A stretch of DNA of 64,000 nt from Thalassospiraceae bacterium LMO-SO8. GTDB lineage: Bacteria; Pseudomonadota; Alphaproteobacteria; Rhodospirillales; Casp-alpha2. Where the stretch lies: assembly GCA_031655335.1 (NCBI GenBank), contig CP134226.1, forward strand, positions 2,746,001 through 2,810,000, in the 5' to 3' direction. A program made the translations under genes and the position numbers. The notes below the pieces were generated by a model. It did not search any database. It was not told the DNA's origin and worked only from the letters and a program-made list of their open reading frames with translations. This document shows, piece after piece, positions 1,650 to 20,121 of this stretch (the first letter of the stretch is position 1; each line of letters starts with the position of its first letter).

Positions 1650-2921
1650 ATGTCGGATGTAACATTGTCGGCGGCTGTGCGGAATACGCTGCTGTCGCTG
1701 CAGAATACGACTGATCTGATTAATCGAACCAATAACCGCCTGTCTTCCGGGTTGCGTGTTTCCGGCCCGGTCGACGACCCGGTGGCCTTCTTCTCCGCGA
1801 AAGCTCTGAACGACCGTTCGTTCACCTTTACCGAGCGAAAGGAAGGTATCGATCAGGGGATTTCCACGGTCACGGCGGCCTTGGACGGCGTCGAGGGTAT
1901 CGACAGTTTGGTCCGCCAACTCAAGGGGATTGCGAACTCCCTGAAATCGGCGAGTGGCGTTCAGTTCACCGACTTGGTCACCCAGTTTAACGAAATTCGC
2001 GGCCAGATCGGCGACTTGGCCAGTGACGCCGATTATCAGGGCCTAAACCTCATCGACAACACGTCGCAGTCATTGGCGGTGAACTTCGCCGACAATACCT
2101 CGAGCCTCTTGACCATCAATGCGGCCAACCTGCGTCAATCGGGTCTCGGCATTGACGTGGCCGAGCTTCGCACCGACTCCAAGGTGTCATACGCGGCCAC
2201 GACGGGCACGACGATCACCAACACGGCGACCAACTTCTCGGCCATCACGTCGTTCTCCGACGCGGGCGGCAGCTTCACGGTGACGTTTAACGGCACCGGT
2301 GAGCGTGTGTTCACCACGACCGGCGGCAACAGCCTGACCATTTCCTTCGGGACCGCCACCTTCACGATCCGGGCGGCGACGAACGCCGACGTGACCATCA
2401 CTCAGGGCGCCGTCATCACCCTGCAGGTTACGACGACGGTCAACGCTTCCGACTTCCTGGCCGCCACCAACTCCACGACGGCCATCTCGATCAACCTGGA
2501 CGCGACGTCGCTACTCGCCGTTTACGGGGGCACGCAGGGCATCGTTCTCGGCACCGCCGCGGCGTCAACCGGTGGGATCACCTTGCTTGACTCTTCGGGG
2601 GCGTTCCAGGAAACCGACTTTTTGGCCGAAGGCGCGATCTCGGATCTCGACAACATTGTCGTGGATCTCGATGCGGCATTGGCTACCCTGCGCACGGAAT
2701 CTCAGAAGCTGGGTTCGAACGTGGCCCTGCTACAGACCCGTTTGGACTTCACCGAATCCTATATCAACACCCTGGATGAAGGGGCGGGCAAGCTGACGCT
2801 GGCCGACCTCAATGCTGAAGGGGCCAACCTGTTGGCCTTGCAGACCCGGCAGCAGCTGGGTATTTCCGCTCTGGCCTTCGCCGGCCAGTCGGAACAGGGC
2901 ATTCTGGCGCTGTTCAACTAA
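1650..2921 (+). CDS. Flagellin, copy 2
   Basis: Second filament subunit of 423 residues, collinear with copy 1 and differing by one residue in length. The N-terminal and C-terminal polymerisation domains are conserved (RLSSGLRV motif near 32-38, C-terminal GILALFN). Differences are concentrated at residues 1-158 and 280-400, while the centre is almost identical. The start ATG lies 9 bases after AAAGG. It has its own upstream region and its own downstream hairpin, so it is probably transcribed separately. Both copies may assemble into one filament, or be used at different times. The sequence does not decide this. Confidence 0.95.
   Translation: MSDVTLSAAVRNTLLSLQNTTDLINRTNNRLSSGLRVSGPVDDPVAFFSAKALNDRSFTFTERKEGIDQGISTVTAALDGVEGIDSLVRQLKGIANSLKSASGVQFTDLVTQFNEIRGQIGDLASDADYQGLNLIDNTSQSLAVNFADNTSSLLTINAANLRQSGLGIDVAELRTDSKVSYAATTGTTITNTATNFSAITSFSDAGGSFTVTFNGTGERVFTTTGGNSLTISFGTATFTIRAATNADVTITQGAVITLQVTTTVNASDFLAATNSTTAISINLDATSLLAVYGGTQGIVLGTAAASTGGITLLDSSGAFQETDFLAEGAISDLDNIVVDLDAALATLRTESQKLGSNVALLQTRLDFTESYINTLDEGAGKLTLADLNAEGANLLALQTRQQLGISALAFAGQSEQGILALFN
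2125..2483 (+). repeat. Flagellin central tract, copy B
   Basis: Partner of 533-891: 5 mismatches over 359 bases, no gaps. The boundaries are abrupt, with codons just left and right of the tract differing at several bases between the two genes. Confidence 0.9.
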
Positions 2922-3071: not shown

Positions 3072-4442
3072 ATGGCTTTCGAGCAGTTATTACTTCAGGG
3101 CAATCAATGGATCGAGCGCCAGGAGCCTCGGTCGGCGATCCCGTGTTTCATGCAGATTTTGCAGAGCGACCCGCGGCATGTCGGGGCTATGACCGGCTTG
3201 GCGAAAGCGACGCTACAGCTTAACGACCCAACCACGGCCTGGCAGATGTTGCAGACCGTTCTTGCGGCGGCGGCGCAGGATACGGACGTTCTGAATACCG
3301 CCGGAAATGTGAAGTTGGCCTTAGGCGAGATAGAGGAGGCGATCCGGCACTTCGAGGCGGCGCTGGCGCTCTGCCCGGATGAGCCGGGGATACTCCTGAA
3401 CCTGGCGACCGCGGTTTGCGGGGGCGGTGATCTGGACCGGGCCGAGGCAATCTACCAACGCCTGGAAGCCGAAGGGCGGGCGACAGAGACCTCCAAATTC
3501 AACCATTCTCTGGTGCAGTTGTTGTGCGGACAGTTCGCGAAAGCCTGGCCCGGGTTTGAACTCCGCGGGCAGGCGGCAAACACGGGATTGGCCGGGCGAA
3601 CATTCCCCGGTCAGCGATGGGACGGCAGGGAATCCCCCGGGGAAAGCCTGCTGATTCATGCGGAACAGGGGCTGGGCGACAACATCCAGTTCGTGCGTTA
3701 TCTGCCACAGATTTCTCGGCGCGTCGGGCATGTCGTTCTGGAGGCGCCGAAGGCGCTGGTTGATTTGTTCGCGAACCTTCCGGGCGTTGATGAGATCGTT
3801 GTCATGGGCGAGGCGTTGCCAGACTGCACCCTGCACGCGTCGATCATGAGCCTTCCGGCGCTTTCAGGTACGGTTGAGGAGACAATCCCCGCCGATATTC
3901 CCTATCTTCCGGTCGTTTCCGACGCCGTCGCGACGTGGCGGGAAAGATTGGGGGCTGGCGACGGCCGCTTGCATGTCGGGCTGGTCTGGGCGGGGAACGC
4001 CGGGCATCGGCGCGATCGGGAACGCTCCTTGCCGCTGCGTACTCTTGCGCCGGCCTTGAAGATGGCGGACGGGGCCGTGTTCCATGCTTTTCAGATCGGC
4101 GAGCCGCTGGCGCAGGTCCACGCCGCCGCGGGAGAATTCGGTCTCGACATCAATGTTTTGTTTCCCGAGCCGCAACCCCTGACCGAGGTCGCCGCGGCAC
4201 TGAGCGCGGTGGACCTGCTGATTTCCGTCGACACGGGATTGGCGCATCTCGCCGGGGCCATCGGCCGTCCGGTTTGGAACCTGATCACATATGTACCCGA
4301 TTGGCGCTGGATGATGGGACGTGCGGATACGCCCTGGTATCCGACCATGCGTCTCTTTCGCCAATCCGCCGTGGGTGATTGGGATGCCGTCGTGACGGAC
4401 GTGGGGACGGCATTGGCGATGGGGGCCGCCGGATCCGATTAG
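3072..4442 (+). CDS. TPR protein with GT9/heptosyltransferase-like C-terminal domain
   Basis: 456 residues. The first ~165 form tetratricopeptide-like helices (for example LNTAGNVKLALGEIEEAIRH near 77-96). The C-terminal ~270 residues resemble the nucleotide-sugar-binding half of GT-B transferases of the GT9/TPR-glycosyltransferase type, with a VDLLISVDTGLAHLAGAIG stretch near 380-398 followed by W-rich PDWRWM. Such proteins are common in alphaproteobacterial flagellin-glycosylation clusters. It sits directly after the flagellins and converges on maf, the two stop codons overlapping at 4439-4442. GGGAT precedes the ATG by 5 bases. Likely role: adds or elongates a sugar on flagellin. Donor and acceptor are unknown. 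Confidence 0.82.
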   Translation: MAFEQLLLQGNQWIERQEPRSAIPCFMQILQSDPRHVGAMTGLAKATLQLNDPTTAWQMLQTVLAAAAQDTDVLNTAGNVKLALGEIEEAIRHFEAALALCPDEPGILLNLATAVCGGGDLDRAEAIYQRLEAEGRATETSKFNHSLVQLLCGQFAKAWPGFELRGQAANTGLAGRTFPGQRWDGRESPGESLLIHAEQGLGDNIQFVRYLPQISRRVGHVVLEAPKALVDLFANLPGVDEIVVMGEALPDCTLHASIMSLPALSGTVEETIPADIPYLPVVSDAVATWRERLGAGDGRLHVGLVWAGNAGHRRDRERSLPLRTLAPALKMADGAVFHAFQIGEPLAQVHAAAGEFGLDINVLFPEPQPLTEVAAALSAVDLLISVDTGLAHLAGAIGRPVWNLITYVPDWRWMMGRADTPWYPTMRLFRQSAVGDWDAVVTDVGTALAMGAAGSD

Positions 4443-6433
4443 GGATTGGCGAGCGCCTCCAACTCCATGAACTCGCCCTGGTCGAGAACCGTAAGGTGCT
4501 TGATCGCGCGTTCCCGGCAGAGTTCCACGAGGTCGATGAATTCCTTGATGAACATGTCGTGGACTTTTTGACGGATTTCATCGTTCTGCGCCCGATGGGA
4601 GTAGTAGTCGCCTAAGATCAGAACCATGTTGAAGGTTCCGCGCAGCATCAGCGTGGAAAACTTCAGGTACCGATCATCCGCCGGCGGATGATAAAAAATC
4701 GAATTAAACTGAATGAATGGCTCCGTATCCTTGAAGTCGACCCAATTTTTTGCGACTTCGTGGACGTCGTCGGATGTGCGGTTGATCGCCCCGATGAGCA
4801 GGTCGATATTCCAGGCGGTATCGAAGTCTTCCTTGCTGAAGCGGGGGAAGGCCTCGATCATCGAGTGAACGATCTTGGATTTTTCGGTCGGCGGTTCGGG
4901 CAGGTCTACCGTTCGCGCCAGTTTCGGCGGCGCACCCTTGATCATCGCGCCGTTGCTGCAATTGAAGAACTTGATGTGCCGCGGCGCCATGTGAACCATC
5001 CTTTGGATGGAATCGAGCGCCCAGAACAGGCCGGTCGTCGTTCTTGCTTTGCCGCCGAAGTTGGCGGGGACCTCTACGTTGAACGGTGACTGGGGAATGA
5101 TTGCGCCTTCGGTGTAGTGGTAGGAAACGGCGGCGTGGTGCTTGTCCGTTCCACGCTGTCCCATGTCGACGCCGAACAGGTAAATTTCGGAAAACCCGAG
5201 TTCCAGCACGAAGCCTAGACCTGCGTTCACGACCGTCGGGTCGAGGTTGTGAATGAAGTTTCGCACGTCGTCGGAAAATACGGGAAAGGGGCAAAGCGCA
5301 ACCCGGTGATAGAACACCCGTTCCTTGAACATCGTTGCGGCCTCGATGTCCACGGTCGAAGCCGCGACGAGACAGATGTCGTCTATGTCGTGTTCCTCGG
5401 CAACGAATTCCAGGACCGTTGCGACCTCCAGGTTTTCCATTTCTACCTGGAAATCCGGCTTGATGCCGGCGGCCATGAGCGGGCCGAGCGCGGAGCCGCA
5501 GGAAATTACGACCCCGCGGTCGGCGTTTCGCTTTAGGTGTTCGATGGACTCATCCAGGGATGGGCCGCAGCCGACGACGAATGCGGGGCAGTCGCGGCGC
5601 GGGGTGGAGTCCGGGCGGAAATAGAATCGCGAGGTTCCGTCGGCCAAGTTGGTACGGGCGTTCCGGATCATCAGTTGTTCGTCGTAAAAGAAGCCGAGAC
5701 CGGCCAGCAGCAGCGAGGCCTCCTGATTGAATTGCTTCGTGAATTCGTCGAAGGTGCTCGAAATGAAGTGTTGGTACACATAGGTGCCATCGACGGCCGT
5801 AACGGCAGTGCCGCGCACACGATGGCGCAGGCCGTCGATCAAGGCACGGACATCGTCGGAAATGAAGAAGAAGGTATCCCCGTTCCTTTCCTCCATCGTC
5901 GATATCAATTTGGCCCAATCATAGACTTCCAGGGATTGGTACAGCCCCTCGTAGTTGGCATCCATGATGATTATGTTTCGGCACTGGGTGCGTTCGACGA
6001 GCGCGTCCAGGTGAGGTGCGAGCCCGATGCCCTGCACGATCAGGTAGAAGGAGGGTTCAGACTGACGCTCAATTCTGAATTCTGCTCCGAGGTCCGCTCT
6101 TGCCTTGTCGAGAAAGCGTTCCACCAAGACGTTGCCGTAGGTATCCAGCGCTCCGGCTTGAAGTTCCGGCAAGGTAAGCCTGCTGGGTTTGTCCCAGAAT
6201 TTCTTGAGTTGTTTCTCAGTGAAGCCGGTGATATCGCCGTCATAAAAGCGTTGCCCCATGAATTCAAGGTCGGGCGTTCCATCGTCATTGAATACCAAGG
6301 TAGCCAGGGGCTTGTGGGCTTCGATGGTGTCTGCCGTTGAGGGGTAGTAGCGTCTGAACGCCTCCATGTTCCGGGCGCGAAGAGCCTGTCGTTCTTCCAG
6401 GCTTGGCGGGGAACTGACAGCTTCTAAATCCAT
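4439..6433 (-). CDS. maf: Maf-type motility accessory protein (DUF115), putative flagellin glycosyltransferase
   Basis: 664 residues from the ATG at 6433; a TTG at 6439 is a possible alternative start. The central region has the Maf/DUF115 signature: a Gly-rich VVGCGPSLDESIEHLK motif, then VVISCGSALGPLMAAGIKPD, and later LGFSEIYLFGVDMG. Maf proteins transfer nonulosonic acids such as pseudaminic or legionaminic acid onto flagellin before export, in the cytoplasm. Its neighbours (two flagellins, two TPR transferases, a sulfotransferase-like gene) fit that role. No nonulosonate biosynthesis gene is in the window, so the sugar cannot be named. It is transcribed away from the sulfotransferase gene from a shared 212-bp region carrying a CtrA-like box. 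Confidence 0.88.
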   Translation of the reverse strand: MDLEAVSSPPSLEERQALRARNMEAFRRYYPSTADTIEAHKPLATLVFNDDGTPDLEFMGQRFYDGDITGFTEKQLKKFWDKPSRLTLPELQAGALDTYGNVLVERFLDKARADLGAEFRIERQSEPSFYLIVQGIGLAPHLDALVERTQCRNIIIMDANYEGLYQSLEVYDWAKLISTMEERNGDTFFFISDDVRALIDGLRHRVRGTAVTAVDGTYVYQHFISSTFDEFTKQFNQEASLLLAGLGFFYDEQLMIRNARTNLADGTSRFYFRPDSTPRRDCPAFVVGCGPSLDESIEHLKRNADRGVVISCGSALGPLMAAGIKPDFQVEMENLEVATVLEFVAEEHDIDDICLVAASTVDIEAATMFKERVFYHRVALCPFPVFSDDVRNFIHNLDPTVVNAGLGFVLELGFSEIYLFGVDMGQRGTDKHHAAVSYHYTEGAIIPQSPFNVEVPANFGGKARTTTGLFWALDSIQRMVHMAPRHIKFFNCSNGAMIKGAPPKLARTVDLPEPPTEKSKIVHSMIEAFPRFSKEDFDTAWNIDLLIGAINRTSDDVHEVAKNWVDFKDTEPFIQFNSIFYHPPADDRYLKFSTLMLRGTFNMVLILGDYYSHRAQNDEIRQKVHDMFIKEFIDLVELCRERAIKHLTVLDQGEFMELEALANP

Positions 6434-6544
6434 AGGCAAAAACTCTCGTGCTTAATAAAGGGGCCAGATTGCGGAAACGTGCATGTAAAGCAGTGTGTTC
6501 CCAATGCCGGCATCGTAGACGGCATGAGTATTAGAGGGTCAAGA

Positions 6545-6559
6545 TTAATTCCCGATTAA
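6545..6559. promoter_or_regulatory. CtrA-like box in the maf/sulfotransferase divergent promoter
   Basis: TTAA-TTCCCGA-TTAA followed by CC matches the CtrA consensus TTAA-N7-TTAA(C). It lies about 110 bases from the maf ATG and about 87 bases from the divergent start. A 10-base palindrome, ATGCCGGCAT, lies at 6504-6513. Confidence 0.55.
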
Positions 6560-6645
6560 CCGCCCGTGCTCTATCGTGCCAGCTTATGAGCATATGGTGG
6601 GTCAACCGCGAAGCTCAGACCTCAGGATATTGAAGAGACCTTTCC

Positions 6646-7548
6646 ATGGCCACGGTTTATGCCCACATCGGATCGGAGAAATGCGGTTCGAGTTTGATTG
6701 AGTTGATGCTTCTGAACAACCAGTCGATGCGTGACTTGTTGGAAAGCCAGGGGATCATCAGTGCCACGCAGTTTCATGTCGCCCTGCGAAAAGTTGTGGT
6801 GGGGACACAATGGGACGAGGGCATTCACGGCCGCCTCAAGGCGCAACTGCTCACGCCGCTTCGTATGTCCGGGAAGAATGTTTTTATTTCGGAAGAACTG
6901 CTGCTCAACCTTACGCATGAAAAAGAAAAACCCAATCCGCTGGATCTTCGGGTCTCGTTTTCAAAACGGTTATTGCAGGGGTTTGAGCAAATAAAGATCA
7001 TCTTGATCGTGCGCCGCCAGGACAAGTTCATCGAATCTCATTACAATCAGCAGGTGAAACGAGGAGAAACCCGGGCCTTTGAAGAAGTCCTGGAGAACCT
7101 AACCCTCGACAACTATTGCTGGGACGTCATCGCCGACGCGTGGGCCGAGGGGTTCGGAAAAGACAACATCACAATCATTCCATTCGAGAGTTCGGTTTTG
7201 GAATCCGCCGAGGGCGGACCCAAGAATATTCTCTCTGCGGTCTGCCGGGTTATGGGCATCAATGTGGATATCCGCACGGACAACCTACCGATCGTCAACC
7301 CGAGTCTGCGCCCTGAACTGCTTAACGCGCAGCGCGAAATCAATGCGACGATGGACCGCGTGACGGCAGGAAAGGTTGCCGACATTCTCACAATGAAGGT
7401 CTTGAAAGTGCCGGGCGCCGCCCAGGGACTGTTTTCTCCCGAAGACCGGCAGCTCTTGTTGGATCGATATGCCGCATCAAACCGCCGGCTGTTCGAGAAG
7501 TATATCCCCCAGTGTTCTGTGGACGAATATTTGACGGCCGGGGATTAA
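6646..7548 (+). CDS. Sulfotransferase-like protein
   Basis: 300 residues. The N-terminus MATVYAHIGSEKCGSSLIEL resembles the 5'-phosphosulfate-binding loop of PAPS-dependent sulfotransferases (HIGxxKxGSSxL). IILIVRRQDKFIESHYNQQ near 112-130 resembles the 3'-phosphate-binding motif (Arg followed by a Ser/His-Tyr segment). Family members transfer sulfate from PAPS to sugars or other hydroxyls. Set between maf and a TPR transferase in the flagellin-modification island, it may sulfate the flagellar glycan or another surface glycan. This is inference. It starts at the ATG at 6646 and is transcribed alone, divergently from maf. Confidence 0.7.
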   Translation: MATVYAHIGSEKCGSSLIELMLLNNQSMRDLLESQGIISATQFHVALRKVVVGTQWDEGIHGRLKAQLLTPLRMSGKNVFISEELLLNLTHEKEKPNPLDLRVSFSKRLLQGFEQIKIILIVRRQDKFIESHYNQQVKRGETRAFEEVLENLTLDNYCWDVIADAWAEGFGKDNITIIPFESSVLESAEGGPKNILSAVCRVMGINVDIRTDNLPIVNPSLRPELLNAQREINATMDRVTAGKVADILTMKVLKVPGAAQGLFSPEDRQLLLDRYAASNRRLFEKYIPQCSVDEYLTAGD

Positions 7549-7829
7549 GCTCATTACCTGATTTTTTTTATCTTCTTGTCTTGGTGTCGAGCTTGAACAA
7601 AGACGTTGGGAAGACGTCGGCGGGCTCCCTTCGGTAGAACGGCACGAGTTCATTTCCGTTTCCGAAACAGGAATCTATCTCACTGATATGTATAATATTT
7701 TTTTCTCGGGACGATGTGGAAGCCGTTTCCATCCCCTCGCTTTTTGGGCGACAAATTGATAGCGGACAAAGGGAAAGTGCAGTATAACAAAAAGTAAGTT
7801 TTTATATAGAGGCAGGGAGTGCAAGGCGG

Positions 7830-8672
7830 GTGAAGTTTTCGCCGACAGGTCTTGGGAATTTTGCAGCGGCGTTTGCGCAACGCTCGCTCGCGAGCCAGCG
7901 CATCGGTTTTGAATTGCGCTTCAACCAACTGCAGAACACCTTAATCGGTCGCTTCAACGAGGAGGTCGATAAGGCCAACGATACACCGCTCAATACCCAG
8001 CGCAAGATCAATACACTTCAGAAAAAGTCACAGGATTTAGTGGCCGCGCTGCCGGTCCTTCAGGAATACCGTCAGGGCAACACGAACAACAAAGGCCAGC
8101 TCGAGGCGTTGTTCGAGGAAATCACGGGCCTGTTTTCGACATTCAACCAGGACGCCACCGTTGACGCCGATGAGGTTGCCGCCTTCAACGCGCAGCGGGA
8201 TGTGGTCGTCAATCGGCTTAATAATATTTTTGTGTTTTCCCATCCGGATATCAACGACGCCAATACCATCCAGCGCCTGAAGGATAACCTGGATACTCTG
8301 CGCGGTCTCGAGGTCGTGGCCGGGCCGCTGTCGGATCCTCAAAACCAAGCCGTCTCCGATACGTTGACGCGGTTCCAGACCGAGACCAGCATCGGTATAA
8401 CCGTGACGCAGAACACGATCTCGACGACGTTGGATCTGGAACAGCGGATCGAATCCAAGTTCTCGTCCGCGGATGCGGAATTGTTGGAGTTGACGACGGA
8501 AGAGCAGGCGCGGCGCAACAAACAGATTGAGAATATGCAGATCGACCTTGGGAATCAGTTGCGGGCGATTTCCATTAGTTTCGAATTGAATGCCGCCTTC
8601 GCTGAATCCTTGCAGGCGCGCCTGACGAAAGCTCTGCCGCAGCCGGGTTCGGTTTTGAATCTGTTCTCTTGA
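7830..8672 (+). CDS. Unrecognised helical protein in the flagellin-modification island
   Basis: 280 residues from a GTG start; AGGGA lies 12 bases upstream. I recognise no family. It has no signal peptide and no membrane segment. Predicted structure is nearly all helix with heptad-like spacing (residues 20-75 and 195-265), and the protein ends in a short hydrophobic SVLNLFS, loosely like flagellin C-termini. The upstream 281 bp are unusually AT-rich for this window. It is flanked by the sulfotransferase-like gene and the convergent TPR/GT41 gene. It could be a flagellum-associated secreted protein, a chaperone or a scaffold for modification. None of these can be shown from sequence. Confidence 0.75.
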   Translation: MKFSPTGLGNFAAAFAQRSLASQRIGFELRFNQLQNTLIGRFNEEVDKANDTPLNTQRKINTLQKKSQDLVAALPVLQEYRQGNTNNKGQLEALFEEITGLFSTFNQDATVDADEVAAFNAQRDVVVNRLNNIFVFSHPDINDANTIQRLKDNLDTLRGLEVVAGPLSDPQNQAVSDTLTRFQTETSIGITVTQNTISTTLDLEQRIESKFSSADAELLELTTEEQARRNKQIENMQIDLGNQLRAISISFELNAAFAESLQARLTKALPQPGSVLNLFS

Positions 8673-8733
8673 GCAGCATTCGTCGCGAAGGTCTGAGCCA
8701 CAGCCCTTCGCCGTTCTTATTAACAAACAAACG

Positions 8734-10710
8734 CTACGAGGTGGGGACTTCGCGCCCAAGCAGGCGCAAATAGGCCCGCTCGATGGAGCGCACATGCGGT
8801 TCCGGGTTGAACAGTAGGGCTTGACGCATTTCCTTGCGAAGGGTTCTCCGAATTTCAGACAGAGTGCCGACGTCGCTCAGGATATCAACCGTCAATTTGA
8901 TCAGATCCGCCCGTGTTTCAGCGATCCAGCCTGGGCGGGCTCCCGTGTACACCACGCTTGCCCCCAGCCGGTCAAAAGGCCTTTCCCCCTTTAGCGAGAG
9001 GACGGGGACGCCCATCCATAGAGAATCCGCAATGATGCTCGGGTTTGCCCGGCGGCCGACATCGACGAATACATCGATGCTGTTCCAGTAGTCGGGGTCG
9101 ACGATCATCTGGTCCGCGTATTTTTGCTCGGAAGACATTTCAATGCGGTCGGCAAGGTCGAATGCCTTAAGTTGGAATTTGATGCGGTTGAAGGCTTCCG
9201 GATCGACGACCGGGGTGGCGCCGGCGATAAGTCGTGCCTGTGGGATTTTATTGAGAATTTCGGCGAGCATCTCGGCTTCGTCCCGCATGATCGCTCCTGC
9301 GTCGCAGGATATGCCGATGGCGGGGGCGCCGGATTTCTCGACAGGCAGCTCACCGATGGCAGGCAAAGTTTTTCGAGGCTGATATGACAACAGGCCGAAG
9401 TCTACCTTGTGGGTCTTCTGGTCTTCACGTAATTCCTCCTTGGCCGCTGCGTCGGTGATATCGTCCGTCAGGACATAGTCGATGCCAGGCATGCCTAAGC
9501 CCATCCCCGCACCCCAGGCGCCAACCTGAATCTTGGCTGGGTGCATTTGCATGACTGTCGCGCGATTGTTTGCGTCATCGGTGCAAAGATCGATGAGAAT
9601 GTCGATCTGGTCGCCGGTGATGATTACAGCCAGAAGTTCATCATCCAGATTGCCCACATAGCGCACGTTATCTGCGCTTGCGCGAAGCCGCTGAGTTGTC
9701 GAATCGCTGCCATGGGATTGCTGGTAGACGGTCACATGGAAACGCCGCCGGTCGTGCAACTGTAAAAAAGGCTCGACCATCCGAGTCTGGTCGCCGAACA
9801 TGAACCTATTGGAAATGTAGCCTAACCTGATCTTCTCTTCGTCCGATCCGGTTCCGGTGTCATCATCAACGACGGCTTCTGGTGGCAGGCCGGGTGCATC
9901 TTTCAATCGGCGCTTGAGTTGCTGGTGCAACTCATCGATCATCTTGGCATGCCCCGGTGGCAGCGCCGAGGACCGCGCGAAAACCGCGGCGGCCAGCTCG
10001 ATCGATTCCTTGTCCAGCTCCAAAGCGGCTTTGTGTTGCAGGGGGGCTTCCTCGAATTCGCCGAGCCGATAGCAAAGATTGCCCAATTTGAAGCGGGTGT
10101 CTGCGTCGTTCGGCTGAAGTTCGATGGCCTTCGACAAGTGCTGCAAGGCCTCGGTATAACGGCCCAATTCGCAAAGCGCGTCACCGTAATCACGGTGGCA
10201 TTCGGGATTGTTCGGGTTGATTTTGAGTTCGCGCTCGAAATGCCGAATGCTGTCGAAAAATCTGCGGGCGTTATACTGCGACATGCCATGCAGGTAATTG
10301 ACGGAGGGGCTTGCCGTCTTCAACGACGTGAAATAGTTCGAGAATCGAACCGGCAATAGACCTTCGATGGTCGGGTGCGGCATCAAGGTCATCGACAATT
10401 TCGCGTAAAACAGGCCTTCGTTGAGCCGTCCGACCTGCGTATAGAGATTGGCCAATGCCTCTGCGTACTCAAAGCATTCCGGGGCCAGGCTGGCCGCCTT
10501 CTCGAACAGTTCAAGGGCGCGGCCCAGCTCATTCATTTCAAGGGCGACCAAGCCGAGAAAATAGAAACTTTCCGGCCGAGTGTCGTCGATCATGACCAGG
10601 CGGTCGATGCCGGCCAGAGCACTTTCAGAATGTGCATTGCCGATCAGTTCAAGAACTTCGCGTGCAATGTCATCGTATTTCAGGGCAGCCTGATCATCAG
10701 GTCCTGTCAT
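8734..10710 (-). CDS. TPR protein with OGT-like (GT41/SPINDLY-type) glycosyltransferase domain
   Basis: 658 residues. The N-terminal ~270 residues carry several TPR units (for example CHRDYGDALCELGRYTEALQ near 169-188 and the following ELQPNDADTRFKLGNLCYRL). From about 300 on it resembles bacterial OGT/SPY-like GT41 proteins: RLGYISNRF, then DIDILIDL-like QIDILIDLC, and a late IADSLWMGVPVLSLKGERPF motif that contacts nucleotide-sugar in the family. Bacterial GT41 members glycosylate Ser/Thr of flagellins or adhesins. It is convergent with the unknown gene upstream and lies 57 bp from flaF on the same strand. Likely an O-linked flagellin transferase; substrate inferred from context. Confidence 0.85.
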   Translation of the reverse strand: MTGPDDQAALKYDDIAREVLELIGNAHSESALAGIDRLVMIDDTRPESFYFLGLVALEMNELGRALELFEKAASLAPECFEYAEALANLYTQVGRLNEGLFYAKLSMTLMPHPTIEGLLPVRFSNYFTSLKTASPSVNYLHGMSQYNARRFFDSIRHFERELKINPNNPECHRDYGDALCELGRYTEALQHLSKAIELQPNDADTRFKLGNLCYRLGEFEEAPLQHKAALELDKESIELAAAVFARSSALPPGHAKMIDELHQQLKRRLKDAPGLPPEAVVDDDTGTGSDEEKIRLGYISNRFMFGDQTRMVEPFLQLHDRRRFHVTVYQQSHGSDSTTQRLRASADNVRYVGNLDDELLAVIITGDQIDILIDLCTDDANNRATVMQMHPAKIQVGAWGAGMGLGMPGIDYVLTDDITDAAAKEELREDQKTHKVDFGLLSYQPRKTLPAIGELPVEKSGAPAIGISCDAGAIMRDEAEMLAEILNKIPQARLIAGATPVVDPEAFNRIKFQLKAFDLADRIEMSSEQKYADQMIVDPDYWNSIDVFVDVGRRANPSIIADSLWMGVPVLSLKGERPFDRLGASVVYTGARPGWIAETRADLIKLTVDILSDVGTLSEIRRTLRKEMRQALLFNPEPHVRSIERAYLRLLGREVPTS

Positions 10711-11438: not shown

Positions 11439-13844
11439 CTAAAGGAAGTTTGATAGGCTCAACTGCCTGACCCGCGAGAAGGTCTGGTATGAGGCCTCCA
11501 GAACCCGCTGGCTGTCCAGCAACCGCGTGATCGCATCTAGGGGGTCGATGTTCTCGATCTCGGCAACGCTGCTTTCGAAGTACGATATAATTTGGTCATT
11601 GGATGTTTTGATGTCGTTCAGAAGAACGGCCCGGTAGCCCAGGATGATCTCCATTTCCTCGATATTGCTGTTCAATTCCGCGCCGAACGGCGGCGGCGTC
11701 GAATTGGTGCGGTCCAGCGCGTCGTCCATCAGGAAGATGGCCTCGCTGACTCGGTTCACGTTCTGATCGAGGCCGCCTTCCGTTCCGTACTCTCCCTGCA
11801 GTACCAGGAACATGCCACGGATCGCTTTTTCGAAGGCCGGATCTACCCCGGTGATGTCGAGTTCGAAGGTCCGGGAGTCGCTGGCCCGATGGGTCAGTGA
11901 CATCGTGTCGCCCTGGTAGTAGCTGGTAGCCGAGATCGTTCCGATGGTGTTGACCGCGTTCAGAGTGCCGGCGGTGACCGTCGGCGTGGTGTCATCGACG
12001 GTATTGGTCGGGATCAAGGTCGCCGTCCGGCCGTCCGACGAGACGGAGGCGATGGTGAAGTTGGTGCCGTCGTTGGCGGTGCCGGTGCCGGCCAGCGCGA
12101 AGACCGTTCCGGCCGGCAGATTGTTACCGGCGGCATCGCGGAAGAAACCGCCACCCAGGGTAATGCTATCCGCCGACGGCGTGTTATCGGCAAACGTGAT
12201 GCTGCCAGTACCTGCGAGCACGGCATTCGTGGCGACTTCATTTGAATCGTCCACATCATCCGTAGCGATCAGGGTCGCCGTCGTCCCGTCAGATGAGATC
12301 GACGCGATGGTGAAAGTGGCGTTGTTCGCCACCGTGCCGGTTACGGTGATGCGACTACCCGCTGGAAGAAGGTTGCCCTTGGCGTCCGTGAAGGTCGAGC
12401 CCGCTAGCGTGATGGTATCGGCGTTGGCGCCGTTTTCCGTGAAGGTGACCTGGTCACCGCCGTTGGCGCTGGCGTCGAAGTAGAAGTTCCGTTCCGCTGC
12501 GTTGAACGAGAAAAGTTCGGGGCGGGAAGACACAACCCCCGTGGTGACCGTGGCAACCGTGGCATCGACACTTTCGTCGTCTTCAAGCGTGATGGTTGTG
12601 CCATCCGCCGAGACGGACTTGACGGTGAAAATCTTGCCGTCGTTTTCCGTATTCGTATTGTTGATTTTGATTTTCTGGCCGTTTTCCAGGGCAGAATAGG
12701 TGCCTGCGGTACCGGCGATCAGCTGATCCTCGCCGTCGGCACCTGTTCCGACGGAGAACGTGAGGGGGTTGCCGCCGCCCGCTGTGTGGACGGTCGCGCC
12801 GCTGCCGCCAGATGATACCAGGCGTTTGCTTTCCACGACCAGATTGGTGCCGTCGTTGCTGGCGACCGTGAATGTTCCGTTGTTGTCGACGGTTCCTGCA
12901 ATGGTGATTACCGACCCTTCTGGAATGGCCTCCAGGGCGTCGGCGTTCACGGCCGTGATGGTATTGGTGCGGCGATCGAAGGTGACGAGAGCCGGGGTTG
13001 TCACCGACTGACGCGGATCTTCAGGGTTGGGGTAGGTGAATGTGGCGCCGACGGGCGTCGCCTCGTCGGTGAGCTGTTCCGTGCGGACATCGATCCAAAG
13101 ACCGTTGGGATCGACGGAATCCACCGTATAGATGCCGTCGTTCAGGCCATCGACGGTCCCGGAAATCGTGATCGTCGTGCCGGCGGCGATGTTTTGGAAC
13201 TGGCCGCTGGATGCGGTCGTGTTGATGCGGCTTTTCCCGGTGCCTGCATCGGCCTGCTCGAACGTCAGATGGGCCGGATTCAGGTCGACGCTGCTGCGGT
13301 TGATCGAAAAATTCTCAAGATTTGCGTCCCGGGTGGTGGGGACAGACACCCGGGCGCCGTCGAACACGGACTGGAACGCCTCGACCGTCGACAGGCCGAA
13401 GCTGACGGGTTCCGTGCGCACGGTGCCGCCGCCGAAGATGTAGCGGCCATCCGCTTCCGTGTTCAGCAGGTTCTGGATTTCCTTCAATGCGCGGAAGGCG
13501 TCGGCCTGGATTTGTTCGACCCGTTCCGGGTCTGTGTGATCGCCGTTGGAAAACTGGAACAGCAGTTCGCGGAAGTTGCTGATGGCCCCCTTGATCCCAG
13601 TGACCGCCGTCGTTTGGACGTCCAGGCGCAGTTGGGCCTGGACGTTGTTCGCGTTGAATCGTTCCAGACTGGACTTGGCGTTCTCAATGTTGACCAGACG
13701 TTGCGAGGACAAGGCCAGACCGCTGTAGGTCTGCGATTTCTTTTCCGTGCCGATCTGGGTTTCCAGGTCGTGTAGCGTCCTCTGCGTTTGCAGGAAACGG
13801 CTGATCAGAATGGTGTTGGAGGCGGAACTGCTGATTCTGGTCAT
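11439..13844 (-). CDS. flgL: Hook-filament junction protein FlgL with a large repeat insertion
   Basis: 801 residues, over twice the usual FlgL length of roughly 300-400. The N-terminal flagellin-like domain (1-165, with NTILISRFLQTQRTLHDLE and ADGRYIFGGG near 131-140) and the C-terminal helices (about 640-801, ending RVRQLSLSNFL) are typical. Between them, residues about 219-630 hold five copies of a beta-rich unit of the pattern G-x-x-I-T-I-x-G-T-x-x-N-D/N-G/A-T-F-T-I/V-A-S. The last two copies lie in an 82-residue tandem duplication (467-548 and 550-630). FlgL adapts the filament to the hook; the insertion should form a surface-exposed outer domain. AGGGG lies 8 bases before the ATG. It lies 11 bp after flgK. 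Confidence 0.9.
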   Translation of the reverse strand: MTRISSSASNTILISRFLQTQRTLHDLETQIGTEKKSQTYSGLALSSQRLVNIENAKSSLERFNANNVQAQLRLDVQTTAVTGIKGAISNFRELLFQFSNGDHTDPERVEQIQADAFRALKEIQNLLNTEADGRYIFGGGTVRTEPVSFGLSTVEAFQSVFDGARVSVPTTRDANLENFSINRSSVDLNPAHLTFEQADAGTGKSRINTTASSGQFQNIAAGTTITISGTVDGLNDGIYTVDSVDPNGLWIDVRTEQLTDEATPVGATFTYPNPEDPRQSVTTPALVTFDRRTNTITAVNADALEAIPEGSVITIAGTVDNNGTFTVASNDGTNLVVESKRLVSSGGSGATVHTAGGGNPLTFSVGTGADGEDQLIAGTAGTYSALENGQKIKINNTNTENDGKIFTVKSVSADGTTITLEDDESVDATVATVTTGVVSSRPELFSFNAAERNFYFDASANGGDQVTFTENGANADTITLAGSTFTDAKGNLLPAGSRITVTGTVANNATFTIASISSDGTTATLIATDDVDDSNEVATNAVLAGTGSITFADNTPSADSITLGGGFFRDAAGNNLPAGTVFALAGTGTANDGTNFTIASVSSDGRTATLIPTNTVDDTTPTVTAGTLNAVNTIGTISATSYYQGDTMSLTHRASDSRTFELDITGVDPAFEKAIRGMFLVLQGEYGTEGGLDQNVNRVSEAIFLMDDALDRTNSTPPPFGAELNSNIEEMEIILGYRAVLLNDIKTSNDQIISYFESSVAEIENIDPLDAITRLLDSQRVLEASYQTFSRVRQLSLSNFL
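11955..13190 (-). repeat. Beta-repeat region encoded within flgL
   Basis: Encodes FlgL residues about 219-630. Repeat cores lie at residues 219-253, 307-338, 387-421, 494-526 and 577-611. The last two cores belong to an 82-residue tandem duplication encoded at 12201-12446 and 11955-12197. The protein repeats are clear. DNA identity between units is lower, so the expansion is not very recent. A similar unit is in FlgE. Confidence 0.8.
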
Positions 13845-13855
13845 CGTATAATCCC

Positions 13856-16207
13856 CTAGGCCACGGCCTGTTCCAGGCGGTCAATCATTTCCTGGATGAC
13901 GGAAATTACCCGCGCGGCGGCGGAGAACGCCTGTTCAAACACGATCAGATCCGCCAATTCTTCGTCCAGGTTGACACCCCGGATGCTGTCGGACTTGAAC
14001 TGAAGACTTTCGGTCAAGGTGCGCTGGCTATCGATTTGCCGGTCGTTGGTGTCGGAAAGCGACGAACTGCGCGCGATGATCGACGAGGCGTATTCGGAGA
14101 AGCTGACATTCAACGACGGCAGGCCGCCGGAAACCGCGAATGAGTTGGAATTGGACAGCATTGCGGACAGTTCACTGGCAACGCCGTTGCTGCCGGGCGA
14201 TGTCAGGTATTCACCGGCCTGGCCTTTCGATGCGTCGAATTCCAAACGCCCGGACGAAACCAGACTGGGGGCCGCGACAATGTCCGACCGCACGGAAACC
14301 GCGGTCGATGCGCGGACATCGGATTCCTTCAAGCCCAGTTCGCTGATCAGCGTCGTGCCGGCGGTCGCCGGGGCGACGCCGGGCGAGGCGGAGTGCGTGA
14401 CGGTGAAGGACCGGCCGTCGTCATGGGCAATCCGCAACCGGAAGCCCGAGCCGTCGGGCACCACGGAAGCGGTGATGTTCTCGATCGGTGGGAAACTGGT
14501 CCCGGTGGCGGGGGCGCCGACGGGATAGAACATCCCCGACGTGTCCGTGCCGCCGTTGTTGATGAGATCGGCGATCTGCTGCAGCGTCGCCCCTGCCGGG
14601 ATGACGACATGGCCAAGATATTCCGGACCCGATCCCGTGTCCGGCGTGTTGGCGTCGCGGAAGCTGAGGACGGCGGAGGTGCTCACGAAGTTGGAACTGA
14701 GAACGTTCGAATCGTAGATGTTTTCCGCCAAACCGTCGACGAACAGGTTGTTCAGGCCGAAGAAGCTCGAAAACCCGGCAATCGTTTCATCGACGGTTCC
14801 GTCACCGTCCTTGTCGAATTCGATGGAGGCGTCTCCAAAGTCGCTGCCGTCGGCCGTGCCGCTTTCGTCGCGGAAACCGAATCCGAGCGAGGTGTTGTTG
14901 AGGTTGATGGACAGCTGGCTTTGATCATTCAGCGTCACCGATGCCGAGGGCGCGCCGTTGAGCTGGAAAAAATCTTCAAGTCGGGCGGCCAGTTCAGTGA
15001 TGGTGATTCCACCCCTATAGTCTTCACCGTCGCCATAGACTTGACCGTATACCGGATCGGTTGTGTCGCCGGCGCCGGTGTTATCGTCATCGTCAAGGAG
15101 TTGTGACATCCGAATAGACAATGTCTCGTTCCCATCACTGTCGGTCAGGACCAACACGGAATCGGAAGAGTTGGCGAAGGAAATCGTCTGTTCCTGGGGC
15201 AGGGTGAAAATGCGCTGGCCGGTCAGTTCCTGATGGCCGGGGAACGGCGTGCCGCGGTTGTGAACCAGGTTGATTTGGTCGCGCAACTGCGCCGCCAGTT
15301 CGTCAAGTTGCGCCTGAAGATTCGGCAGGACATCGTCGCGCATGTCGAGCAGGCCGGCCAGTTGGCCGCCGCGGGCCTGGGTCGTCAGGTCGTTGATGGC
15401 AAGCCGTTCGCCCACATAGATGCCGTCGATCTGGCCGCTGGCGACCGTCGAGGTCGAACTCATGGCGGCCGCGGATTCGTGAGTGATGGTCGGCGGAATG
15501 GTGTCGACCAGTGTCAGGCCCGAGGACGTGAACACGACGACGTCGCCGTCGTTGCGCGAGAAGAAGCGGATATCGACCAGTTCGGACAGGCGGTCGATCT
15601 TGTTGTCACGCTGATCTTCAAGGTCCGTGGTGTCGTTGCCGGTCGAACCGAAGCGGATAATGTCGTCGTTGAGCTGGTCGATGTCGGCCGTCAATTGATT
15701 CATCTCGGAGACGACGGCGGTGATCTGCTGATCGGCCTGCAGCCGCAGATCCTGAATCGTGCGGCTCATGGCGGCGAATTTCTCGACCGCTGACTGGGCT
15801 TGGCGGACCAGTTCGCTCTGCTCAAGGATGCGGTCCGGCGAAACCGAGAGAAGTTCCGCGGCCTCCTTGAACTCTTCCAGAATATGCGCGATGGAGGTGT
15901 TGTCCCCCGGCGCGCCGAACGTTTCCTGTAGGCGCTGGTAGTAGCTTTCCTTGACCGTCACGTGGTTGAGTTCGCCCAGTTCCGTGCGGATGGTTTTAAT
16001 CAGGCCGCCATCGACGACGCGGCTATAGCTGGCGATCGAGACCCCGGCGCCCTGGCCGGCCAGCACCACGGATTGCTGTTGGATGATCTTGCGTGAATAC
16101 CCCGGGGTGTTCACGTTGGCGACGTTCTGGGAAACGATATTGAGCGCCGTCTGATTCGCCAGCAGGCCGCTTTGCGCTGATCTCAGTGCTTGTGTGATAT
16201 CGCCCAT
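13856..16207 (-). CDS. flgK: Hook-associated protein FlgK
   Basis: 783 residues. The N-terminus has the flagellar rod/hook signature (TQALRSAQSGLLANQTALNI, then SQNVANVNTPGYSRK). A long coiled segment follows (about 130-200), then a variable beta-rich middle. The C-terminal helix motif (LDEELADLIVFEQAFSAAAR) matches HAP1 proteins. FlgK is the first junction protein between hook and filament. It is co-directional with and 11 bp upstream of flgL, the usual arrangement, and 36 bp downstream of the flgN-like chaperone gene. It is longer than the enteric FlgK, with the extra length in the outer domain. Confidence 0.95.
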   Translation of the reverse strand: MGDITQALRSAQSGLLANQTALNIVSQNVANVNTPGYSRKIIQQQSVVLAGQGAGVSIASYSRVVDGGLIKTIRTELGELNHVTVKESYYQRLQETFGAPGDNTSIAHILEEFKEAAELLSVSPDRILEQSELVRQAQSAVEKFAAMSRTIQDLRLQADQQITAVVSEMNQLTADIDQLNDDIIRFGSTGNDTTDLEDQRDNKIDRLSELVDIRFFSRNDGDVVVFTSSGLTLVDTIPPTITHESAAAMSSTSTVASGQIDGIYVGERLAINDLTTQARGGQLAGLLDMRDDVLPNLQAQLDELAAQLRDQINLVHNRGTPFPGHQELTGQRIFTLPQEQTISFANSSDSVLVLTDSDGNETLSIRMSQLLDDDDNTGAGDTTDPVYGQVYGDGEDYRGGITITELAARLEDFFQLNGAPSASVTLNDQSQLSINLNNTSLGFGFRDESGTADGSDFGDASIEFDKDGDGTVDETIAGFSSFFGLNNLFVDGLAENIYDSNVLSSNFVSTSAVLSFRDANTPDTGSGPEYLGHVVIPAGATLQQIADLINNGGTDTSGMFYPVGAPATGTSFPPIENITASVVPDGSGFRLRIAHDDGRSFTVTHSASPGVAPATAGTTLISELGLKESDVRASTAVSVRSDIVAAPSLVSSGRLEFDASKGQAGEYLTSPGSNGVASELSAMLSNSNSFAVSGGLPSLNVSFSEYASSIIARSSSLSDTNDRQIDSQRTLTESLQFKSDSIRGVNLDEELADLIVFEQAFSAAARVISVIQEMIDRLEQAVA

Positions 16208-16243: not shown

Positions 16244-16687
16244 TTAAAGGTTTTGGTCAAGAGAGACGGCGACGGAATTGGCCGCCGCGCGCGTACCTTC
16301 CTTGCCCGTGCGGCCGTTCTTCGAATAGGTGCCGGAATGGGGAACGGCCTGCTGCACGGCTTCGGCGAACAGATCGATGACCTGCTTGTTGGCGGTCATG
16401 CCGACCTCGAGACGCATGGCGTTCTCGCCGACGGCGTTGGCCAGGCGGGTGCCCGCGACGGTCAGCTTCTCGTGCAGGTCGGGCGGAATGGCCTTCCAGT
16501 CCAGGTTGGCTTCATCCAGATCCTTCATGCTGTTTTCGTACAGGCGCGCAAGCGTCGCCTTGTCTTCCAGCATGGCTTCCACGTCGAGGAACCGGCGTTC
16601 GATGAGCGCCAGATTCTCCGCTTCGATCAAGTCGCTCATCTGGTCGGTCAATTCGACCATTCTTTCAAGGCGTTCCATCGGTTCCAT
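16244..16687 (-). CDS. FlgN-like export chaperone candidate
   Basis: 147 residues from the ATG at 16687; an open frame extends further upstream but overlaps flgJ and reads as non-native sequence. The product is small, acidic and nearly all helical (MERLERMVELTDQMSDLIEA at its start, a helix pair to about residue 110, then a short basic tail). Size, helicity and position between flgJ and flgK match FlgN family chaperones, which hold FlgK and FlgL before export. No motif is strong enough to prove the family. AGGACC lies 7 bases upstream of the ATG. Confidence 0.65.
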   Translation of the reverse strand: MEPMERLERMVELTDQMSDLIEAENLALIERRFLDVEAMLEDKATLARLYENSMKDLDEANLDWKAIPPDLHEKLTVAGTRLANAVGENAMRLEVGMTANKQVIDLFAEAVQQAVPHSGTYSKNGRTGKEGTRAAANSVAVSLDQNL

Positions 16688-16715
16688 GAGTGTAGGTCCT
16701 CCTGTCGGGCGCGTG

Positions 16716-17048
16716 TTAGCGCGCCTCCTGCATGCGGATAAGCTGGTCCAGAACGGTGTCGGCGATACCGACGCCGCCGGCCTTGGAAATGGCCTTGCCG
16801 TATTCGTCGATCTGCAGATTGCGCCAGATGTCCTCGGCCGGGCCGCCGCCAAAGGGTTTTTCGGCTTCGATGTTTTCGAACATCGGGCGGATCATTTCGG
16901 AAATGAAGACTGACTCGAAATCCTGGGCGACGGCGCGCATGCGCTGCATGGACATGGCGCTGTGCGCCTTGCCGGTCAGGGCACCGACCTTGGCCGAAGG
17001 CGCGGTCTGCAAGCCGACGAGCGTGGTATCGATGGCGCCGCTCATCAC
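16716..17048 (-). CDS. flgJ: Rod-binding protein, FlgJ N-terminal domain only
   Basis: 110 residues. The FlgJ_N/rod-binding signature is visible: AQDFESVFISEMIRPMFENI (about 41-60), then GGGPAEDIWRNLQIDEYGKA and the closing helix IADTVLDQLIRMQEA. The muramidase domain found in gammaproteobacterial FlgJ is absent, as is usual in alphaproteobacteria, so peptidoglycan cutting must rely on another enzyme. Its first codons overlap the end of flgI by 4 bases, so it is translationally coupled. It helps assemble the rod in the periplasm. Confidence 0.92.
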   Translation of the reverse strand: MMSGAIDTTLVGLQTAPSAKVGALTGKAHSAMSMQRMRAVAQDFESVFISEMIRPMFENIEAEKPFGGGPAEDIWRNLQIDEYGKAISKAGGVGIADTVLDQLIRMQEAR

Positions 17049-18498: not shown

Positions 18499-20121
18499 CT
18501 AGCGTTTGAGGTTCGCCGCTTCCTGCAACATTTCATCGGCGGTCTTGAAACTGGTCGCGGCCACGTTATAGGCAGCCTGGGCGGCGATCAGGCGGCTCAT
18601 TTCCGTGCCGAGATCCACGTTGGAGCCCTCCAATGCGTTTCCGAGCAGGGTCGCGAAGCCGGACTCGTCGGCGAAGACCTGATTCGGCTCGCCGGAGGCT
18701 TCCGTTTCCTGGAAATTCTGGCCGGTGGATATTTCCAGGCCGTTCGGGTTGGGGAAGATCGCCAACGGAACCTTGTAGAGAACGCGGCGCGTGTTGTCCG
18801 TGAACTCGCCGTAGATCTCGCCGCCGGGCCCGAAGCTCAGGCTCGAGACGGCCGCGGACTCGGCGCCGTTGTGTTCATAGTTGGCGAAGGAAAAATCGCC
18901 GGCGAATTGGGTGAAGGTACTGGCATCAAACGTGAAACTTGCGGTTTCGCCGTTATCGAAGGTGACGTCGAACGTATATTCGGAATCCGATGTCAATGCG
19001 CCGGTGTTGCCGAATTCAAGGCGCTGCGGGATCGATGCGGTCGAGGAAAACGTGATGGCGTTTGTCGTCACTTCATCGGTGTTGAGAGGCACGGCCCCAT
19101 CCAGGGTGATCTCCGCCTGGTTTTCCGAAATGCTGGCGATCGTATAGGTCTGGTCGTTGCCGCCGCTTCCCGCCACGGTGATCGTGTCACCCGGCTTCAA
19201 CCCGGCGAACGTGCCGGCCAGCTGGCTGCCCAGTTGCGCACCCCCGCCCGGATTGTTGTTGGTGAATGCGGTAATGACGCCACCGCCGCCGGCGACGGTC
19301 GAGAACCGCACGGCATGATCGCCCAGCGTCGTCGAGACCGGCGTGTGGACACCGCCGGGCGATGTGGTCACGCTGGCGATATTGTCGCCGATCAGGCGGA
19401 AATCCCACAGGTTCGTCGCATCGAAAGCCTTGGTGAAATCGACGCGGATGCTTTGGGCGTCAAAGCTTGAGTCAACGACCTTGATGCTGCCGTTAAACGT
19501 CGTGCCCGAGGCGGCGTCGGCCGGCAGGTTGACATCGACGGACGCGGTCGTTGTCACTTCCCCGGTGTCTTCAAAGGCGAACTGGTCGACGCGCATGGGC
19601 GCCGGCGTGCCTAGCGTGAAGCTGCCGTCCGAATTGACAGCATAGCCCAACAGGAAGTTGCCGAACTGGTCCGCGAGATAGCCCTGGTTCACGGTCGCCG
19701 CCGTTCCGTCGGAAAGCGTGACGGAATCCGTCAGGTCGGTGACGTTGATGTCGAAGGCGCCGCGCCGCGTGTACTGGATGTTGCCGTTCACATTGATGTC
19801 GGGCGAGACCATGAAAAAGCCGCTGCCGATGATCGCCACGTCCAGGTTGCGGTCGGTGGTGCGGACTTGGCCCTGATTCGAGATGCGTTGGAAATCAACG
19901 GGTGCGGTCCCGCCAAGATCGGAATGAGTGGTCCCGGAGGCACCTTCCGCCGTGGTCGCGCCGATCGACGTGAACCCTTTGTTCATCAGGGTTCGGAACT
20001 CGGTGTCCGTGCGCTTGTAACCGTCGGTGTTCAGGTTGGCGACGTTTTGCGAAATGGTGTTCAGCTTGTGGGACTGACCCATCATGGCCGAGGTCGCTTG
20101 CTGAAAAATGCCCAAACTCAT
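18499..20121 (-). CDS. flgE: Flagellar hook protein FlgE
   Basis: 540 residues. The N-terminal rod/hook motif is intact (SAMMGQSHKLNTISQNVANL, then NTDGYKRTDTEF). The C-terminal helix is typical (GTEMSRLIAAQAAYNVAATS ... ADEMLQEAANLKR). The middle carries the hook D1/D2 beta domains plus an insertion near residues 308-340 that matches the FlgL beta-repeat (GDTITVAG ... TYTIASISENQAEITL). FlgE polymers form the flexible hook. A sigma-54 promoter lies 55 bases upstream and an inverted repeat about 100 bases further. The iron transporter genes upstream are a separate unit. Confidence 0.93.
   Translation of the reverse strand: MSLGIFQQATSAMMGQSHKLNTISQNVANLNTDGYKRTDTEFRTLMNKGFTSIGATTAEGASGTTHSDLGGTAPVDFQRISNQGQVRTTDRNLDVAIIGSGFFMVSPDINVNGNIQYTRRGAFDINVTDLTDSVTLSDGTAATVNQGYLADQFGNFLLGYAVNSDGSFTLGTPAPMRVDQFAFEDTGEVTTTASVDVNLPADAASGTTFNGSIKVVDSSFDAQSIRVDFTKAFDATNLWDFRLIGDNIASVTTSPGGVHTPVSTTLGDHAVRFSTVAGGGGVITAFTNNNPGGGAQLGSQLAGTFAGLKPGDTITVAGSGGNDQTYTIASISENQAEITLDGAVPLNTDEVTTNAITFSSTASIPQRLEFGNTGALTSDSEYTFDVTFDNGETASFTFDASTFTQFAGDFSFANYEHNGAESAAVSSLSFGPGGEIYGEFTDNTRRVLYKVPLAIFPNPNGLEISTGQNFQETEASGEPNQVFADESGFATLLGNALEGSNVDLGTEMSRLIAAQAAYNVAATSFKTADEMLQEAANLKR
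19102..19200 (-). repeat. FlgL-type beta-repeat unit inside flgE
   Basis: FlgE residues 308-340 match the FlgL unit, for example GDTITVAG followed by TYTIASIS, against GSRITVTG followed by FTIASISS in FlgL (about residues 496-518). It occurs once in FlgE and five times in FlgL. Confidence 0.7.

Follow-up and report, generated by a model that had tools for sequence, protein, structure and literature searches.

Why is the hook–filament junction protein FlgL of Thalassospiraceae bacterium LMO-SO8 so long, and is its extra length built from something recognisable? The window analysed here is a stretch of 64,000 nucleotides in a 3.98 Mb single-contig genome, and its flgL gene (11439..13844, minus strand), recognised from its open frame and FlgL family matches, encodes 801 aa. 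An earlier note on this DNA had called that about twice the usual length, and the order agrees: FlgL frames without a detected copy of the module described below have a median length of 413 aa (46 genomes, 310–989), compared with 593 aa for frames that carry it (97 genomes, 412–1434), the medians covering 143 of the 153 genomes in which FlgL was detected. Flagellar outer domains are usually described as variable and have rarely been traced between proteins. Across the order, a good part of the added length of FlgL goes together with a module without a Pfam or NCBIfam model, which is common to FlgL, two FlgE paralogues, some FlgK and phage structural proteins and provides a concrete family in which to study the origin of flagellar outer domains.

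The modules of FlgL and FlgE

The window protein has the flagellin-like N- and C-terminal helical regions expected of FlgL, and flgK adjoins its gene. Because the terminal parts alone match, the family models stay below their curated cut-offs; at the N-terminus, the best stretch of NF006489 covers residues 2–166 and that of TIGR02550 residues 3–149. A PDB sequence search with FlgL (E ≤ 0.001) returned three FlgL-type chains only, matched within residues 16–175. What lies between the termini? Profile searches find five serial all-beta units of about 75 residues spanning residues 193–623, all on the minus strand: module 1 (residues 193–269; 13038..13268), module 2 (287–352; 12789..12986), module 3 (361–435; 12540..12764), module 4 (466–540; 12225..12449) and module 5 (549–623, or to 625 in the broad-profile search; 11976..12200). 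The earlier note had counted five repeats in FlgL, and the profile recovers the same number within residues 193–625. The 82-residue tandem duplication it described corresponds to modules 4 and 5, whose starts lie 83 residues apart. This duplication is old, since the two units are only 58% identical in protein and their DNA shares 152 of 230 aligned bases, with 29 gap positions. The FlgL of genus mates likewise has five units and the 4/5 pair in common, and the closest relatives of module 1 are the first units of other FlgL. The named FlgL relatives (n = 13) are metagenome-assembled records, mostly Rhodospirillaceae, Rhodospirillales or Magnetovibrio. The insert contains 17.4% threonine, against 7.6% in the remaining FlgL, and less arginine and glutamate.

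Is the same unit present in the hook? FlgE1 (540 aa; 18499..20121, minus strand) is an FlgE-type hook protein by its rod-type N- and C-termini (Flg_bb_rod, Flg_bbr_C), its D1 domain and its hook fold, with a match to TIGR03506 (E = 5.9e-65) and to hook structures in Foldseek. Profile, alignment and model place a single module in its D2 domain, at residues 283–361 (to 362 in the broad-profile search; 19039..19275, minus strand). The genome encodes a second hook protein, FlgE2 (800 aa), about 28 kb before the window (G000:C1:2717427, locus L007), with one module at residues 288–356, and both FlgE paralogues of the genome bear the module. A profile made from the five FlgL units only finds FlgE2 at E = 2.3e-11 and FlgE1 at E = 7e-6, compared with a best value of 0.082 among 3,000 shuffled sequences (1,000 from FlgE1, 1,000 from FlgE2 and 1,000 from the FlgE1 insert region). 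The similar unit noticed earlier at FlgE residues 308–340 is the core of this longer one. A broad profile finds the five FlgL units (i-E 4e-24 to 3e-18) and the FlgE1 unit (5e-20); as it was partly trained on the units it finds, the FlgL-only profile is the independent test. With a literal motif search, only three FlgL units and the FlgE1 unit match. Run against the whole genome, a profile that includes the units of both FlgE recovers seven matches with E ≤ 5e-22, each within FlgL, FlgE1 or FlgE2, the next standing at 0.016; one further match (1.2e-5), in an open frame of 8,720 residues, comes from a broader profile. At profile level, these searches support reading the FlgL and FlgE stretches as the same module.

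The consensus of 48 units reads approximately xTF......TI.....G.F..L..G..IT..GT..NNGTYTV.SVS..G.TITV. Over the units, Pfam and NCBIfam give no significant model match; the insignificant Pfam rows that touch them are DUF4179 (0.47) in FlgL, and DUF6263 (0.24) and FlgE_D2 (0.35) in FlgE1. The flgK gene (783 aa; 13856..16207, minus strand) has no recognisable module, its best row reaching E = 0.027 with 3 bits, and neither FlgK nor the two flagellins of the window are among the best eight matches listed for the FlgL-unit profile (down to E = 0.99). Modules in the window FlgK or flagellins were considered and rejected, the module profiles giving no recognisable match. The flagellin genes are two similar tandem copies (58–1326 and 1650–2921, plus strand) with a long threonine-rich middle that the module profile does not match.

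How might the unit fold? The model of the FlgL insert (12 sequences) has a mean pLDDT of 67 and a pTM of 0.34, is best over units 1–2, and shows a recurring five-strand pattern in each of the five units. The FlgE1 model has a mean pLDDT of 53 and a pTM of 0.44; its D2 strands (192–254, 366–417) stand mostly at 75–90 with the module between them, and the core strands of the module (313–316, 324–331 and 337–341, at 68–73) have the lengths and spacing of those in FlgL unit 4. The first module strand of FlgE1 (280–286) is less sure (first strands 46–60) and the second is not predicted. Neither model, their confidence being moderate or low, shows a helix of four or more residues inside the units. 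Could the FlgE segment simply belong to an ordinary hook D2 fold, the outcome against which the earlier note had set its claim? This reading was rejected: the segment is a D2 insert that resembles the FlgL units at profile level, is absent or replaced in some relatives and, in the model, has D2 strands on either side. In the PDB, Foldseek found no match to the FlgL insert at E ≤ 0.001, and the best 50 of 766 rows are a scatter of mostly beta proteins and small barrels. For the module profile, the best PDB match is an unrelated serine protease (E = 0.0044), with flagellin D (0.17) and the flagellin hook IN family (0.54) insignificant. Across 187 non-redundant units, the only positions conserved at 0.9 or above are F2 (0.99), G24 (1.00) and N35 (0.91); the remaining conservation consists of hydrophobic, glycine and strand threonine patterns. 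The best conserved threonines (0.74 and 0.72) fall in core strands, which is usual in beta domains. This pattern speaks for a structural role.

Distribution and history of the module

How widespread is the module? In the order, it occurs in at least 105 of 199 genomes (E ≤ 0.001). FlgL, detected with a profile built on its N-terminal 160 residues (E ≤ 1e-8), is present in 153 of these genomes, and 101 have both; four genomes (G012, G027, G132 and G171) have the module but no such FlgL match. Long FlgL of 716–989 aa without a detected module are found in, for example, G102, G158, G176 and G185. The class sample yields the module in at least 18 of 385 genomes and the phylum sample in at least 5 of 398, own genome included in each; these fractions are lower bounds, because each search scored a limited number of candidates per genome, and they are not strictly comparable between order, class and phylum, where different profiles and thresholds were used (A1 with 0.001 in the order, A2 with 1e-4 in class and phylum). 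The 17 other genomes of the class sample contribute 13 FlgL-type frames, three Phage_tube_2 tail tube proteins and one unassigned frame, and the four others of the phylum sample three giant frames (9,292–10,327 residues) and one phage tail protein (PHROG 469). A host census of 158 module-bearing frames counts 101 FlgL, 17 FlgE1, 6 FlgE2, 2 FlgK and 32 other frames, repeats of one gene in overlapping loci included; the loci are best-scoring matches and not a random sample, and six loci (L150, L151, L156, L160, L161 and L162) are apparently contigs already covered by the order search. FlgL carries from one to eight units. One of the module-bearing FlgK has FlgK_D1 and both rod-type ends, and the other is a C-terminal part. 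Giant open frames of about 6,000–10,000 residues with at least one module are also seen in the own genome (G000:C1:2350242) and in genus mates; giant-frame matches on the contigs of L050, L056 and L057 were not reproduced when these loci were rescanned.

Where does the module sit in the hook proteins of relatives? Among 11 aligned FlgE1 relatives, six have it at the same place, three have a longer unrelated insert there, one a shorter insert and one is nearly empty. This hook D2 site looks like a hotspot for insert exchange, and relatives with filled and empty sites could be used for testing the role of outer domains. The FlgE1 of L153, L154 and L157 has a different repeated insert at the module site, with a recurring IRDxxxxAIN-like stretch. 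Five of the 11 relatives that encode both proteins have modules in FlgL but none in FlgE1. FlgE2 offers two sites: near residue 290 in the own genome and one genus mate, and near residues 430–515 in two genomes that represent two further genera of the family. In each pair the site used by the other is empty, and the proteins are 59–60% identical. The protein is similar around both sites, as if the module had entered a host domain that is present twice.

Did the module spread within one flagellum, as the earlier note had proposed? The comparison of 287 units (those shorter than about 50 residues and exact duplicates dropped) speaks against it. Outside a unit's own locus, the nearest neighbour is FlgE1 for 11 of 12 distinct FlgE1 units, FlgE2 for 4 of 4 FlgE2 units, and FlgL for 225 of 228 FlgL and 2 of 2 FlgK units, same-class counts that are raised by near-copies kept from genus mates; the 41 other units have other units (31) or FlgL (10) as nearest neighbours. 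For the window FlgE1 unit and the FlgE2 unit alike, the six nearest units include none from the FlgL of the own genome. Sharing between FlgE and FlgL is thus old, because the FlgE copies resemble the FlgE copies of other genomes and not the FlgL of the same genome, and spread inside one flagellum was rejected, as these nearest-neighbour results do not support it. The occurrence of the module across the order, in phage virion proteins and in adhesin-like frames likewise goes beyond a single flagellum.

A tree of 97 units, built on 74 columns, is poorly resolved, and its bootstrap did not settle. It places 13 of the 16 first units of the sampled FlgL together, along with one inner unit and one adhesin unit, with a support (89/88) below the program's star level; units 4 and 5 of the window form a group (100/96) with those of the genus mate and with unit three of another FlgL. 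A single origin of the FlgE1 copies (p-AU 0.625, 10 of 11 rows tested) or of the FlgE2 copies (p-AU 0.202) is neither shown nor rejected by this tree. Independent insertion in FlgE2 is therefore argued from the different sites and not from the tree.

Phage relatives and known outer domains

What connects a flagellar module to phages? PHROG 1236, which the library annotates no more finely than 'head protein', matches FlgL (1.9e-11, three stretches) and FlgE1 (8.2e-5). The likeness covers its positions 51–111 for FlgL and 58–98 for FlgE1, that is, about 60 and about 40 of 177 positions and not the full profile. A relative of the module is encoded on 14 IMG/VR contigs, and the carrier of each was examined. 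Ten carriers (six of these 14 and four from bacterial genomes) were assigned with PHROG: eight matched, five of them to tail families, two to head and packaging and one to a family of unknown function, and two had no match. Labels that go further, such as tail fibre, sheath or tail tip, are our own reading. Among the loci, L145 and L146 hold the same protein, and L140 and L142 nearly the same one. Phage_tube_2 tail tube proteins with the module were seen in alphaproteobacterial genomes at L130, L133 and L134. When the FlgL insert was compared by Foldseek with predicted viral proteins, 32 matches reached E ≤ 1e-3; those with a name come mostly from tailed phages, and one belongs to an algal virus. 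Their TM-scores are low (0.08–0.22 by query), and since Foldseek also uses sequence, these matches are not independent of the profile evidence. A tblastn search of 50,697 phage records with the FlgL insert and one unit from a relative found no match at E 0.01 and 1, and the phage link therefore rests on profiles, IMG/VR and genome loci.

Is this a known domain under another name? Optional surface inserts in tubular assemblies also occur in phage virion proteins, as Ig-like domains, and in Campylobacter FlgE, as extra outer domains. They are other sequence families, and no Ig-like Pfam row appears for FlgL or FlgE1 at E ≤ 1. The beta-grasp fold contains a helix. A beta-grasp domain of FliD, FlgL, FlgK and Mu-like phage tail proteins (PMC1949818) resembles the module in being one domain in several axial proteins and phage tails; it is the only precedent we found for a domain common to the two, and it has another fold, no helix of four or more residues being predicted in the module units by models of moderate confidence. 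Flagellin_IN is not among the Pfam matches at E ≤ 1. The D2 domains of Xanthomonas FlgL and Burkholderia FlgK (PMC6155364) are, like the insert, exposed outer beta domains set in a helical D1 and variably present, but each is a single eight-stranded beta-sandwich, whereas here serial units of about 75 residues have about five predicted strands each. Chains named FlgL or FlgK are absent from the 32 PDB rows of the module profile (E ≤ 5) and from the best 50 of 766 Foldseek rows obtained with the moderate-confidence model. The I-domain of P22/CUS-3-type phage coat proteins, where a beta-barrel of six strands forms an insert within a virion protein (PMC11243222), is a lead for the fold of the module, not evidence of membership: hhalign against nine coat pieces gave a probability of 67% and a score of 31.0 over only 42 columns (controls: 200 column shuffles reached 15.9 at best and the reversed profile 10.7), and in the PDB profile search the coat I-domain reached E = 0.035, worse than the serine protease. 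A search of titles and abstract beginnings, with subscription journals mostly outside its scope, found no description of the module. Overall, the module is real, old and apparently mobile, and common to flagellar axial proteins and phage virions.

Possible functions and rival readings

Given its homology, number and place in the sequence, its order-wide occurrence, its alternative insertion sites and its presence in phage virions, what might the module do? It is probably a mobile small all-beta domain, used by bacteria and phages as a surface insert. The five serial copies in FlgL would form an outer domain projecting from the junction ring, and the single copy in the hook D2 domain would add an outer knob. 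Published work fits such a position: it places FlgL D2 exposed outside the axial tube, as a decoration of the D1 ring (PMC6155364, PMC12221982), and counts 11 FlgL subunits in the junction (PMC12221982), so that five units per subunit would place 55 in the ring. That the units fold on their own and face outwards is inferred, model confidence being moderate or low and no PDB structure matching the FlgL insert at E ≤ 0.001. They would act by bulk (stiffening, spacing, shielding or surface chemistry) and not through an enzymatic or specific binding site, because the conserved positions are hydrophobic residues, glycine, asparagine and strand threonine. Copy numbers of one to eight fit passive bulk, but they also fit a ligand-binding array.

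Might the units instead display glycans? The earlier note had suggested such a scaffold. In this reading, the threonine-rich units would be O-glycosylated by a Maf-type flagellar glycosyltransferase (4439..6439, minus strand; PF20157, E = 5.1e-42) or a TPR and glycosyltransferase family 41 protein (8734..10710, minus strand; PF13844, E = 3.4e-15) and sugars would be presented at hook and junction. Both candidate modifiers are encoded between the flagellin genes and flgL, the insert is rich in threonine, and in Caulobacter the TPR/GT-B protein FlmG glycosylates flagellins (PMC7591256). However, the substrates named in that paper are flagellins, which here lack the module, and it reports that export of the Caulobacter hook protein is unaffected in a neuB mutant; the best conserved threonines also fall in core strands. 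Glycan display is thus unlikely in our view, though worth keeping in mind. Contacts between modules at the junction look improbable. Quasi-homotypic FlgL–FlgK D2 contacts and junction reinforcement through D2 have been proposed (PMC6155364), and the sample has the module in FlgL, FlgE and two FlgK. Yet the window FlgK has none, which also makes the shared hook–junction array of the earlier note doubtful, because FlgK is layered between the two; in the Salmonella junction table of PMC12221982, FlgL touches FlgK, FlgL and flagellin, not FlgE; and the hook units have neither own-genome FlgL units as close relatives nor a constant presence alongside those of FlgL.

A function in adhesion or towards phages, in which the units would bind surfaces, partner cells or phages in the manner of adhesin repeats and phage tail domains, would suit the presence of the module in giant adhesin-like frames and phage tail proteins; with conservation of 0.9 or above limited to F, G and N and only 11 FlgL subunits per published junction (PMC12221982), it seems very improbable. 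Could the similarity itself be a convergence of threonine- and glycine-rich beta sequence? Composition is biased and the best PDB match is that unrelated protease, but the shuffles come nowhere near the FlgE values and most first FlgL units group together, albeit below star level, and we give convergence hardly any chance. The preferred reading, a mobile outer domain, can be carried one step further, to a 'decoration cassette' moving between phage virions and flagella with several independent entries into hook and junction proteins. This extension is tentative and rather doubtful; if true, two unrelated extracellular tubes would take their outer surface from one module pool.

The surroundings of flgL hold further flagellar genes. 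A FlgN-like export chaperone is a candidate product of 16244..16852 (minus strand), with a weak match to PF05130 (E = 0.0016, below cut-off). The interval that separates the flagellin genes from flgL (positions 3072–10710 of the window) encodes a TPR-GT9 protein, the Maf protein, a weak sulfotransferase match and the TPR-GT41 protein, all candidate flagellar modification genes.
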